Shown here: piece by piece, positions 5,044-45,230 of the stretch
How the letters are laid out: every line of letters begins with the position of its first letter
Numbering within the stretch: position 1 is the first letter of the stretch
Assembly: GCA_902607475.1 (NCBI GenBank)
Contig: CACLKH010000006.1
Location: 1-45,969, forward strand
Origin: an uncultured Alphaproteobacteria bacterium
GTDB taxonomy: Bacteria > Pseudomonadota > Alphaproteobacteria > GCA-002720895
Length of the DNA: 45,969 bases
Direction of reading: 5' to 3'
Position numbers and translations under genes: made by a program
Notes under the pieces: generated by a model
The model's database searches: none
What the model was told of the DNA's origin: nothing
The model's input: the letters and a program-made list of their open reading frames with translations, nothing else

Positions 5044-5910
5044 TTACCACCTTCTGTGTAACCATAGCCACTGTCCTGGATTTTTTCTAATCCATTTTTC
5101 CATTATCAAATTAACTTCAGTCATTATTTGTACAGGTGTTTTACTCTTACCATTTTTTGTGATTTTTAATGGATCATGAAAGGTGATTTTAAAGTTTGTA
5201 TTCTTTATTCTTTCTACTTCAACAGGCACAACCAATGATTTTATTCTAAGACATAATTGAGCTAAAGCATCAGATGTCATTGCAGGTTTATTAAAAAATG
5301 GTACTTTAATTCCATCGTTCATTTTTTGGTCAATAACTAATCCAATACTTGTACCTTTTTTTAAAGAATAAATTAGTTGTTTTGCTCCTTCTTTACCCTT
5401 TGGTGCCATAGGTAAATTTGATCTTAAATATTTTATAAGGAAATTTACAATAGGATTATTTGGTCTCCTAAAAATTGATAAAACCGGAACACCATTTTTA
5501 ATTGATGCAATAGGAGAAATTTCCCAATTTGCTAAGTGTCCTGAAAAAAATATTGCTGGCGTTTTAGTTTTTTTTATAAGTAGAAGATTTTTTTTTCCGT
5601 AAACTTGAATTTTATTATTTTTTTCTGGATCTAATTTTGATAAATGTGGGTATTCACCAACAACTTTTCCTAAATTTTTCCACATATCTTTTATAATTTT
5701 TTTTATTTCGTTTTCACTTTTTTCTGGCATTACATTTTTTATATTATTATATGCTTTTTTTGTAACCCCAAGCTTAGGACCAATGAGCGATGCTAACTTT
5801 CCCATTAAAAAAGAAGAAATATTTAATGGTAAAATCCTTAAAAAAATAAAAATTAATAACAGTCCAACGCCTTCTATAAAATAAATAATTTTTTTTTTTA
5901 ATTTATACAA
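5044..5910 (-). CDS. lpxL: Lysophospholipid/lipid A acyltransferase, LpxL/HtrB family
   Basis: HX4E motif in FFSGHLANWEI, IDQKMNDGIKVPFF, NPGQWLWLHRRW. Confidence 0.88.
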   Translation of the reverse strand: MYKLKKKIIYFIEGVGLLLIFIFLRILPLNISSFLMGKLASLIGPKLGVTKKAYNNIKNVMPEKSENEIKKIIKDMWKNLGKVVGEYPHLSKLDPEKNNKIQVYGKKNLLLIKKTKTPAIFFSGHLANWEISPIASIKNGVPVLSIFRRPNNPIVNFLIKYLRSNLPMAPKGKEGAKQLIYSLKKGTSIGLVIDQKMNDGIKVPFFNKPAMTSDALAQLCLRIKSLVVPVEVERIKNTNFKITFHDPLKITKNGKSKTPVQIMTEVNLIMEKWIRKNPGQWLWLHRRW

Positions 5911-6916
5911 TTTTACTTTTTTTCAAAAAATTAATTAAATTCTTTTCTTCTTTTATTTCAATTTTTAAATCTAAAAAAAAAATTTGCTTTCTTTGCTCAA
6001 CATTTATTCTTTGTTTATCTTTTAAAGTTGAAACAAGTACAGCGTTATTTTTTTTTGCATAATTAATAATGTTATTCATTTCTTTTTTATTGTAAGAATA
6101 ATGATCGGGATAAGGAAAAAATTTTATAATATTCAATTTTTGGTTTTTTAATGAAGAATGAAATCTTTCTGATCTACCTATACCTGAGAAACCAGCTATT
6201 TTTTTATTTTTTAATTGTGAAAAATTTTTTATTTTCGAATTAGCATGAATAATAGTAATTTTATTTTTTATTTTCTTTTCTATATCATTTTCATCTTTAT
6301 TAAAAATAATTAACATATCTGATTTTTTTATACCAGAACTTATAGTTTCTCTTAATGGTCCTGATGGCAAAAGAAATTGATTACCAAATCCAAATCCACC
6401 ATCTACAATCATAATTTTTAAATTTTGATGAATTGAATAATTTTGTAAACCATCATCTAAAATAACTACATCAGCTCCATTAAGAGTAGCCATTAAAGTT
6501 CCTTCAAATTTATTTTTTGATACCCAAGTAGTAGTTTCTTTAGCAAGTAGCAAAGCCTCATCTCCTACATCTTTATAAGAATGTTTTTTTAAATCTACTT
6601 TGATTGGTCCACGCAAATTGCCAAGATAGCCTCTAGAAACAACATGTGCGTTAATTTTTTCTTTTTTTAAAAGATTTACTAGATATATTACAAAAGGTGT
6701 TTTGCCAGATCCCCCTGTATTTATATTTCCTATACTAATAACAGGGACACCTACTTTATTGGTTTTTGTTAATTTTTTGTCAAACTTAGAAACAAGATAA
6801 TATATAAAAGTAAAAGGTAATAATAAAAGAATAATAATTTTTTCTATTAAATTATTCTTTTTTTGCCAAAAACTTGGGTATCCTAATTTAAATAATTTTA
6901 AAAATTTTTGTAACAA
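5903..6916 (-). CDS. lpxK: Tetraacyldisaccharide 4'-kinase
   Basis: VPVISIGNINTGGSGKTPFVIYL (P-loop), SRGYLGN, VILDDGLQN. Confidence 0.94.
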   Translation of the reverse strand: MLQKFLKLFKLGYPSFWQKKNNLIEKIIILLLLPFTFIYYLVSKFDKKLTKTNKVGVPVISIGNINTGGSGKTPFVIYLVNLLKKEKINAHVVSRGYLGNLRGPIKVDLKKHSYKDVGDEALLLAKETTTWVSKNKFEGTLMATLNGADVVILDDGLQNYSIHQNLKIMIVDGGFGFGNQFLLPSGPLRETISSGIKKSDMLIIFNKDENDIEKKIKNKITIIHANSKIKNFSQLKNKKIAGFSGIGRSERFHSSLKNQKLNIIKFFPYPDHYSYNKKEMNNIINYAKKNNAVLVSTLKDKQRINVEQRKQIFFLDLKIEIKEEKNLINFLKKSKIV

Positions 6917-41138: not shown

Positions 41139-42824
41139 ATGAAAAAATACTTTATTATAACTTTTTTTCTCTTTTTTTATTTTCAAAAATCTTTATTAGC
41201 AATAGATTTTGGTAATTATCTAGCTGGTGAAAGTGCATTAATTAATAAAGATAATAAAGCAGCTATACATTATTTTGAAAACTCAATTAATTTAAATAAA
41301 CTTGATACAAAATATGATCATGATATAGCTGAAAAATTATGTACTTTATATCTTTTAGAAGGCGACATAAATAATTGTATTTTATTAGGAAAAAAAATTG
41401 AAAAAAGTATTACTTCAAACAGTATTGAAAGTACAAATATTTTAATGGCTTTAGTTGTTGGAGATATAAAGAAAAAAAATATTAATTCCGCATTAAATAG
41501 ATTAAAAAAAATAAAAAAAACCTCTTATGAAAGATTTTCAGTTCCTATTATTGAAGCATGGTTAATTGCTCAGGAAAAAAAAAATCTTAATAAAGCAAAA
41601 AAAAAATTAGATGAATTAGAAAAAGACTATGTAATAAGTGGTTTAAGAAATTTAAATTTAGCTTTACTTCATGATTTTTTTAATAAAAATGACGAAGCAT
41701 TAATATATTATCAAAAATCTATAAATGCTTATACCCAGCCTTCTTATAGATTAGTAGAAATTTCAGCTAATGCTTTTGAAAGAAATGAAAATTTTGAAAA
41801 AGCGAAAGATATTTACATTAAGTTTTTATCTAACTCTAATGATAATTTATTGATTGAAAACTCACTAAAAAGAATTGAAAAAAAAGAAGTACCAAATAAA
41901 TTAATTATAAATTTAAATGACGTAATTGCAGAGCTATTTAGTACAATTGCTAGCACTTTTAATTCTGATTTTACAAATAATTTTTCAATAATTTATTCAC
42001 ATTTTTCTCTTTATCTAAAAAAGGATTTTGAAGTTGCACAACTTTATTTAGCTGAGCTATTGGAAAGCGATAAAAGATATCTAGATGCAAATAATTTGTA
42101 TAAAAACATAAAGCCATCATCAAATTTCTATTGGCATGCAAAATTAAAAAAAGCAAGAAATTTAGAATTATTAGGAGAAAACGAGAATTCAATATTAATT
42201 TTAAAAAAAATGTCAAATGAAAAAAAAGATAGATATGATGCTTTAAAACTTCTTGGAGATATATATAGAAATTATGATAAGTACAATGAGGCTATAAAAT
42301 TTTATAATGAAGGAGTATCAAGAATAAAACAAATTGAGGTAACTCATTGGGAACTTCTTTATTCAAGAGGAATTGCGTATGAAAGAAATAATGAATGGAA
42401 TTTAGCAGAAAAAGATTTTTTAAAAATTTTAGAACTTATACCAGACCAACCCGATGTTTTAAATTATTTAGGGTATTCATGGATTGAGCAAAATATTAAT
42501 TTAGATCAAGCTAAAAAATTTATTCTTAAGGCTGCAGATATTAGACCAATGGATCCATATATCATTGATAGTTTAGGATGGGCTTATTTTAATTTAAAAG
42601 AATATGATAAAGCAGTAAAAGAGCTTGAAAGAGCAATTAATTTAAAACCAACAGATCCAATTATTAATGATCATCTCGGAGATGCTTATTTAGAAGTTAA
42701 TAGAGAATTAGAGGCAATATACCAATGGAAGAAAGCAATTGATTTTAAACCAGAAAATGATTTAGAAAAAAAAATAGAAAAGAAGATAAAAAAATATGAT
42801 AATAATCAATTAAATCTCCTATAA
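41139..42824 (+). CDS. TPR-repeat protein with signal peptide
   Basis: N-terminal signal MKKYFIITFFLFFYFQKSLLA; multiple TPR-like repeats, e.g. PDQPDVLNYLGYSWIEQNINLDQAKKFILKAADIRPMDPYIIDSLGWAYFNLKEYDKAVKELERAINLKP. Confidence 0.88.
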   Translation: MKKYFIITFFLFFYFQKSLLAIDFGNYLAGESALINKDNKAAIHYFENSINLNKLDTKYDHDIAEKLCTLYLLEGDINNCILLGKKIEKSITSNSIESTNILMALVVGDIKKKNINSALNRLKKIKKTSYERFSVPIIEAWLIAQEKKNLNKAKKKLDELEKDYVISGLRNLNLALLHDFFNKNDEALIYYQKSINAYTQPSYRLVEISANAFERNENFEKAKDIYIKFLSNSNDNLLIENSLKRIEKKEVPNKLIINLNDVIAELFSTIASTFNSDFTNNFSIIYSHFSLYLKKDFEVAQLYLAELLESDKRYLDANNLYKNIKPSSNFYWHAKLKKARNLELLGENENSILILKKMSNEKKDRYDALKLLGDIYRNYDKYNEAIKFYNEGVSRIKQIEVTHWELLYSRGIAYERNNEWNLAEKDFLKILELIPDQPDVLNYLGYSWIEQNINLDQAKKFILKAADIRPMDPYIIDSLGWAYFNLKEYDKAVKELERAINLKPTDPIINDHLGDAYLEVNRELEAIYQWKKAIDFKPENDLEKKIEKKIKKYDNNQLNLL

Positions 42825-42828
42825 GTTA

Positions 42829-43678
42829 ATGTTAAGAAAAAAAATTTTTTAAATGTAAAGCATATGCTAAAATAAATTTGTTTCTTAATGTTTTAAATAA
42901 AACAAAAAATAATTTACATAAATTAAAAAGCTTAGTTTGTTTTATTGATTTGTATGACGAAATAGTAATAACAGAGAGTAAAGATTTTTCAATTAAAATT
43001 AAAGGCCCTTTTAAAAATTTTATAAAAAAAAATATTATTGAAAAAACTTTTTTTACTTTTTCAAATTTTATAAATTTAAAAACAAATTATAAAATATCTT
43101 TAAATAAAAAAATCCCAGTTTCTGCTGGTTTAGGAGGAGGTTCTGCTGATGCAGCTGCAGTTTTACAAGGTTTAAATCTTTTAAATAAAAAAAAAATAAA
43201 ACAAAAAAATTTATTTAAAATTGCCATGAAAATGGGTTCTGATGTGCCAGCTTGTTTATATAATAAAAATGTTTTTTTTTCTGGCCATGGTCAAATTTTA
43301 TCTAAAGCTCCAAAAATACCACAATTCTCAATATTATTAATTAATCCACGTAAAGAACTTTCAACAAAAAAAGTTTTTAGTATGTATAAAAGCAAAAAAT
43401 TAAAAAAAATTAGTAATTTAAAGTATAAAAACTTTTTTTCATGGATTTTAAAACAAAATAATGATTTACAGAAATATTCTGAAAAACTTGTACCAGAAAT
43501 TAAAGAAATGCTTATATTTTTAAATTCATCAAAAAATTGTTTTTTTTCAAAAATGACAGGTAGTGGGCCTACGGTTTATGGTTTATTTAGAAAAAAAATA
43601 GATGCGAAAAAAGTAAATCTTTTATTGAAAAAAAAACACCCTAAATGGTGGTCAGGGGTTTATTCAATTAAAACTTAG
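42829..43678 (+). CDS. ispE: 4-diphosphocytidyl-2-C-methyl-D-erythritol kinase; N-terminus apparently frameshifted at an A8T6 tract
   Basis: GHMP kinase motif VPVSAGLGGGSADAAAVLQGLN-like (IPVSAGLGGGSADAAAVLQG), MGSDVPACL, MTGSGPTVYGLF. In-frame upstream codons give EKKFFKCKAYAKINLFLNV after a TAA at 42833 with no ATG/GTG/TTG; ATG 42829 is one frame off. Confidence 0.9.
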
Positions 43679-43728: not shown

Positions 43729-43803
43729 TGGGGCGTCGCCAAGTGGTAAGGCACGAGTTTTTGGTACTCGCATTCGCAGGTTCGAATCCTGCCGCCCCAG
43801 CCA
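43729..43803 (+). tRNA. tRNA-Gln (anticodon TTG), 3' CCA encoded
   Basis: Cloverleaf read by eye: acceptor TGGGGCG/CGCCCCA, anticodon arm CGAGTTTTTGGTACTCG, T-arm GCAGGTTCGAATCCTGC, discriminator G, CCA 43801-43803. Confidence 0.95.
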
Positions 43804-44328: not shown

Positions 44329-44710
44329 ATGTAATTACTCCCCACATTAAAGGATATTCATAACCTTCCTTGCTCCAAAAAAAACCATGTGGTAAATGAT
44401 ATAAAACAGCAAATGCCATAAATATAGTTACTGATAATGCAGCAATTCTTGTAAAAAAACCTAAAGCTATACAAATTCCACCTAAAAACTCAGTTAATGC
44501 AATTAAATAAGCTAAAAAAACACCTGTTAAAACAGGATTAGAATATTCTTTATCTAAAAAACTAATAAAACCATCAAGATTTCCATTAAATCCTTTATAT
44601 AATTTACCATATCCATGGGGAATTAATAAAATACCAGTTATGAATCTTATTAAAGGATATGATAAATATTCACCAATTGAGTCTAAATTTCTTAAAAATG
44701 GGTTTATCAT
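44273..44710 (-). CDS. DoxX family membrane protein
   Basis: PLIRFITGILLIPHGYGKLYKG, LIALTEFLGGICIALGFFTRIAALSV. Confidence 0.88.
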   Translation of the reverse strand: MINPFLRNLDSIGEYLSYPLIRFITGILLIPHGYGKLYKGFNGNLDGFISFLDKEYSNPVLTGVFLAYLIALTEFLGGICIALGFFTRIAALSVTIFMAFAVLYHLPHGFFWSKEGYEYPLMWGVITFAIFLKGSGRLSIDNKFR

Positions 44711-44756
44711 AAAATTTATTTTCTTTTATAATTATAATTTATTCATTGTAAGCACA

Positions 44757-45230
44757 TTGAAGCAGAAAAAAAATATAATAAAAAAATTTCCTATAAAAAT
44801 CAAATCCAATGGAGAATGGTTATATAAAAATAATTTAATAAAAAAAGAAGCTTTAGTAAAATTATTCGCATCAGTTTTAGTAGCTGATGAAAAAGGAAAT
44901 TTTTATTTAGAAACTCCAGCAGAAAAGGGGATGATTGAAGTTGAAGATGCACCTTTTGTAATAACTAATTTTCATGTAAAAGGTCTAAATAAAAAACAAG
45001 AAATTATATTTAAAACAAATATAGATGAAGAAATTGTTTTAAGTAAAAAGAATCCTTTATTTTATAAAAAAAATAAAGAAAGTTTTATTCCTTATATTGT
45101 TATTAGAAAAAGTATAAATGCTAAAATATTAAGATCTGTTTATTACCAAATAATAAATAAATTTATAGAAAAAAAATTAAAAAAGAATTTAAAAATTAAA
45201 AGTAAAGGACATGAATTTAGATTAAAATAA
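44757..45230 (+). CDS. DUF1285 family protein
   Basis: FPIKIKSNGEWLYKNNLIKKEALVKLFASVLVADEKGNFYLETPAEKGMIEVEDAPFVI; likely TTG start 44757; directly upstream of cca. Confidence 0.82.
   Translation: MKQKKNIIKKFPIKIKSNGEWLYKNNLIKKEALVKLFASVLVADEKGNFYLETPAEKGMIEVEDAPFVITNFHVKGLNKKQEIIFKTNIDEEIVLSKKNPLFYKKNKESFIPYIVIRKSINAKILRSVYYQIINKFIEKKLKKNLKIKSKGHEFRLK

Follow-up and report, generated by a model that had tools for sequence, protein, structure and literature searches.

We examined the translation start of ispE in a 45,969-nt stretch of DNA (the window), which is contig C6 of a draft genome of an uncultured member of the Alphaproteobacteria. The draft comprises 841 kb in 40 contigs and is 72% complete, with a G+C content of about 26% in the part sampled here; the closest named genomes in the public set are MAGs that carry the labels Alphaproteobacteria and Pelagibacteraceae. 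The ispE gene lies between an upstream gene, which we take to encode TPR-like repeats (the name given by the sequence-only reading), and a tRNA gene (Table 1).

Table 1. Features at the ispE start and its surroundings in the window
Feature	Position	Strand	Basis or remark
Upstream gene, TPR-like repeats (presumed)	41139..42824	+	ORF list; stop-to-ATG spacing near-identical in congeners
Predicted ancestral ispE start, ATG then MLRKKIF-stop	42829..42852	+	Not in frame with the remainder of ispE as assembled; four-congener alignment
A8T6 homopolymer run	42837..42850	+	One base above what a continuous frame allows; absent from relatives
Reading frame of ispE (280 codons and a stop)	42836..43678	+	Open; no start codon before TTG 42878
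K-I-N of the AK(I/L)N motif	42869..42877	+	Lys aligned with Lys10 of E. coli IspE (solved IspE chains)
TTG, earliest in-frame codon of ispE that could serve as a start	42878..42880	+	A start here loses the AKIN motif
tRNA-Gln (TTG), downstream of ispE	43729..43803	+	ARAGORN

The ATG at 42829-42831 sits 4 nt past the stop codon (TAA) of the upstream gene and begins the series ATG TTA AGA AAA AAA ATT TTT TAA, which ends at the stop codon at 42850-42852. The ispE frame is +1 relative to this ATG and reads *EKKFFKCKAYAKINLFLNV..., where the opening stop is the TAA at 42833-42835; its codons up to the motif are GAA AAA AAA TTT TTT AAA TGT AAA GCA TAT GCT AAA ATA. Both observations made in the sequence-only reading, that this frame holds no ATG, GTG or TTG before TTG 42878 and that the well-placed ATG encodes MLRKKIF-stop, were confirmed on the sequence. 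A noncanonical AUU, AUC or CUG start was also looked for, and none was found in frame before the AKIN motif. The run that separates the two frames consists of A8 (42837-42844) and T6 (42845-42850). That reading had further proposed that dropping one base restores the IspE N terminus; the one-base excess holds, but either half of the run, A or T, may contain the surplus base. If the T run were one base shorter, or if the ribosome slipped by +1 at UUU, the product would be MLRKKIFKCK..., which matches the KIFK and KILK of two congeners slightly better than MLRKKFFKCK does.

The gene encodes a true IspE, is conserved, and occurs in a single copy. The full frame scored 238 bits against PRK14608 (cut-off, 204) and 163 bits against TIGR00154 (cut-off, 138.7; both NCBIfam), contained both GHMP kinase domains, and aligned to solved IspE structures, and a single frame carried AKIN, the GLGGGSADAAA loop, and GSDVPA from the region of the catalytic Asp. 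The one element missing from this assembly is an in-frame start ahead of AKIN (between TAA 42833 and TTG 42878), which is present in all four congeneric genomes; its absence is a defect of this ispE copy and not a sign of another family. In E. coli IspE, Lys10 forms a hydrogen bond with the methylerythritol moiety of the substrate (PMC11541488). The Lys of the motif aligns with this residue, in a segment that the congeners retain; in the sequence-only reading, its Lys and Asn had been matched to the conserved substrate-binding AK(I/L)N. The gene encodes the sole GHMP kinase found in the source genome. No second ispE copy was found there, and constraint on ispE is thus not relaxed by redundancy. 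In comparison with the nearest congener (G004), dN was 0.105 and dS 0.727 (dN/dS, about 0.14), and the frame holds no further stop. Because the frame is open and under constraint, ispE is not decayed, and it follows that the one-base change is recent, rescued, or not real. As in genes rescued by slippage, the frame break falls inside an A/T run and the frame downstream of it is still under selection.

The ispE genes of the four congeners (G001 to G004; 72 to 81% protein identity) each have an in-frame ATG just past the stop of the upstream gene and span 284 codons, with the N termini MLKGKTFKCKAYAKVN, MPNIKSIKCKAFAKIN, MIERKILKCKAYAKIN and MVKAKIFKSKAYAKIN. The DNA alignment has a single gap; it faces the A/T run in the window, and the congeners are net one base shorter there. 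None of the four has the A8T6 run, and their longest single-base run at that place is 5 or less. As judged from this alignment, ATG 42829 is the ancestral ispE start, and the A8T6 run with its extra base is peculiar to this assembly and does not represent a conserved recoding site. The proposal that ATG 42829 is the true start and that one base in the run has shifted it out of frame is thereby backed by all four relatives, none of which begins at the internal TTG without AKIN. Searches for closer sequence yielded no match above about 80% identity among public genome contigs, no same-species sequence among viral contigs, and weak distant matches only among phage records; family and order searches added no further genomes with ispE.

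If the gene instead started at TTG 42878, it would encode a 266-aa protein and nothing would be wrong with it. This codon is the first in-frame start, and the shorter form still exceeds the NCBIfam ispE cut-offs (219 bits for PRK14608 and 145 bits for TIGR00154). However, the profile scores are lower by about 18 bits, and a start there removes the conserved motif with its Lys and Asn, as had been pointed out from the sequence, including the Lys that aligns with the substrate-binding Lys10. All four congeners conserve the segment ahead of the TTG, with its substrate-contacting Lys, and two of them have the nonstart codons TTA and CTA at the position of the TTG. Since the upstream ATG and this N-terminal segment occur in every congener, TTG 42878 is not the ancestral start, and we give an internal start very little credence.

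IspE belongs to the MEP pathway, and it had been expected to be essential here. This is reasonable for the genus, in which dxr was found in three, ispH in four, and ispG in three of five incomplete genomes. Neither dxr nor ispH was found in the 72% complete source assembly, which could be taken to mean that ispE is truly null as part of a loss of the pathway. It is important to note, however, that most genes on the G004 contig carrying ispH lack a good match in the sampled part of the source genome; the ispH region was probably not recovered, and the incompleteness of the assembly explains the lack of both genes well enough. Moreover, ispG of the source genome is open and of the same length as in the congeners, and the ispE frame shows no further decay. 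A true null is therefore very unlikely.

The position of the run leaves a slip-prone UUU UAA exactly where a shift of frame is needed, and the start could in principle be a programmed regulatory +1 frameshift or a phase-variable switch that controls IspE. The source genome offers a direct comparison in prfB (recognized by site and sequence; C1, L090 at about 5471-6530, minus strand), which has the classical +1 site CTTAGGGGGGGTCTTTGATTT, a textbook AGGGGG...CTTTGA with both slippery codon and stimulator. The two loci share the principle that a +1 slip of the P-site tRNA before a stop gives the needed frame. Unlike prfB, ispE has UAA instead of UGA and is not conserved at the site: the slippery UUU lies beside its stop, but no AGGGGG-like or other Shine-Dalgarno-like stimulator was found at the ispE UUU UAA, and none of G001 to G004 has the site. 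RNA structure at the ispE start did not exceed chance (z, -0.22). In addition, runs of 8 or more occur everywhere in the source genome, so A8T6 itself is not special. A programmed or phase-variable start is thus highly improbable; the one-base excess is real as assembly sequence, and the proposed recoding signal is not supported.

The main rival explanation is a weaker form of recoding. If the extra base were real, IspE might still be made at a reduced level, either by RNA polymerase dropping a base or by a ribosomal +1 slip, and such leaky bypass would be plausible. A shift of the P-site codon from UUU 42847-42849 to UUU 42848-42850 before UAA would yield exactly the conserved frame and residues (MLRKKIF-KCKAYAKIN...), and +1 frameshifting is in use at prfB of the same genome. 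Bypass of an inserted A in an 8A repeat is on record for a laboratory-evolved gene (M.HaeIII; PMC3812077). This case resembles ispE in that the indel is of one base and the homopolymer of about equal length, but it came from a laboratory library under selection, whereas bypass at ispE is a possibility. AT-rich endosymbionts also retain genes with frameshifts in homopolymers that are corrected by slippage (PMC3017870). The poly(A) genes of Buchnera and Blochmannia rescued in this way share with ispE a small AT-rich genome, a frame break in an A/T run, and no other decay, but there several genes are hit and some are common to species, while here a single gene, not conserved at the run, is affected, and the lineage is a marine one related to MAGs labelled Pelagibacteraceae rather than an insect endosymbiont. 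Against bypass, the stop codon comes after only 7 codons, and the site has the same lack of conservation, stimulatory RNA structure, and prfB-like Shine-Dalgarno element. Rescue in RNA would require a one-base deletion, a kind of transcription error that in E. coli and Buchnera was seldom tied to homopolymer runs, insertions prevailing there (PMC5574713). We therefore regard a real extra base with leaky expression as possible but rather unlikely, and the more specific proposal, in which a real A8T6 allele lowers or regulates the output of an essential IspE through a +1 slip at UUU-UAA or polymerase slippage just after the start, as improbable.

How often such breaks occur was assessed in 684 kb of the 841-kb source genome, 463 kb of G004, and 391 kb of G001 by comparing proteins with six-frame translations. 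For the source genome, this gave 431 homologue tests (173 with G004 proteins and 258 with G001 proteins, partly overlapping), and in none of them did a convincing frameshift inside a gene emerge. In the 304 kb of the source genome comparable to relatives, A/T runs of at least 8 in coding sequence number about 940, and no other disruptive frameshift was confirmed there, so that the ispE run represents about one in a thousand of these runs. A single bad run among so many fits a rare error. An apparent frameshift at L093:6822-7173 (G000) was rejected as probably a spurious ORF match, its query holding masked residues. Genuine cases of a missing start in the survey were ispE, prfB, and lgt; other "lost start" matches were discounted as antisense ORFs or stretch ends.

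The congeneric MAG G001 (the SP38 MAG) gave a different picture. About 10 of its 239 tested genes were split by frameshifts (in stretches L072, L076, L077, L078, L081, L088, and L089), mostly at A8 to A12 runs and in two cases beside Ns. Such indels thus do occur in draft genomes of this genus, and the gene content of G001 should be read with care. As a separate observation, the G001 homologue (L088:9523-10111) of a conserved gene at window positions 44640-45230 seems to be split close to an A10 run; the window ORF may itself be miscalled in its N-terminal part, as its G004 homologue also lacks an upstream start.

Taken together, we favor an isolated one-base homopolymer indel at the ispE start, most likely an assembly or consensus error and less likely a real, recent allele, possibly rescued in part by slippage, and not a conserved or programmed signal (probability, roughly 0.6). 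An ordinary ispE, with its ATG 4 nt behind the upstream stop, would have gained one surplus base in the A8T6 run, and this base would be an artefact of the draft genome. The single copy of the gene, the constraint on it, and the presence of its pathway in the genus favor an error, and we infer that the excess base is absent from the DNA of the cell. The case resembles known homopolymer indel artefacts of draft and metagenome assemblies, in which a one-base length error in an A/T run splits a conserved gene. It differs from them in that the source assembly is nearly free of others and that the break lies at the start codon and not inside the gene. Short-read consensus errors at A8 are uncommon, and the source assembly is otherwise clean of such breaks, so a real indel stays conceivable; slippage during replication is itself frequent at A8, which makes a genuine allele plausible. 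Thus, of the explanations raised in the sequence-only reading (error, slippage, or programmed frameshift), error is preferred over a leaky recent allele, and the programmed option did not hold up for want of conservation, structure, and stimulator.

The survey also turned up a start of another kind. In all four congeneric genomes holding lgt (prolipoprotein diacylglyceryl transferase), this gene begins with none of ATG, GTG or TTG (L107 in the source genome, at about 12.44 kb of C9, minus strand; also L105, L106, and L108). The opening is a GGAGA(T/A/C)TTAAA-like sequence, then ATT in three genomes or ATC in one, then ATA/ACA TTT CC. The arrangement resembles a conserved AUU/AUC start codon preceded by a Shine-Dalgarno-like GGAG, common to the genus. 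Compared with ispE, lgt may be the more interesting case of a start codon.

The ispE case matters mainly for annotation. Automatic gene calling picks the internal TTG and loses the substrate-binding residue, and metabolic reconstruction could consequently label ispE as truncated. If the A8T6 allele were true, ispE would be a marine-lineage counterpart of the slippage-rescued genes of insect endosymbionts.
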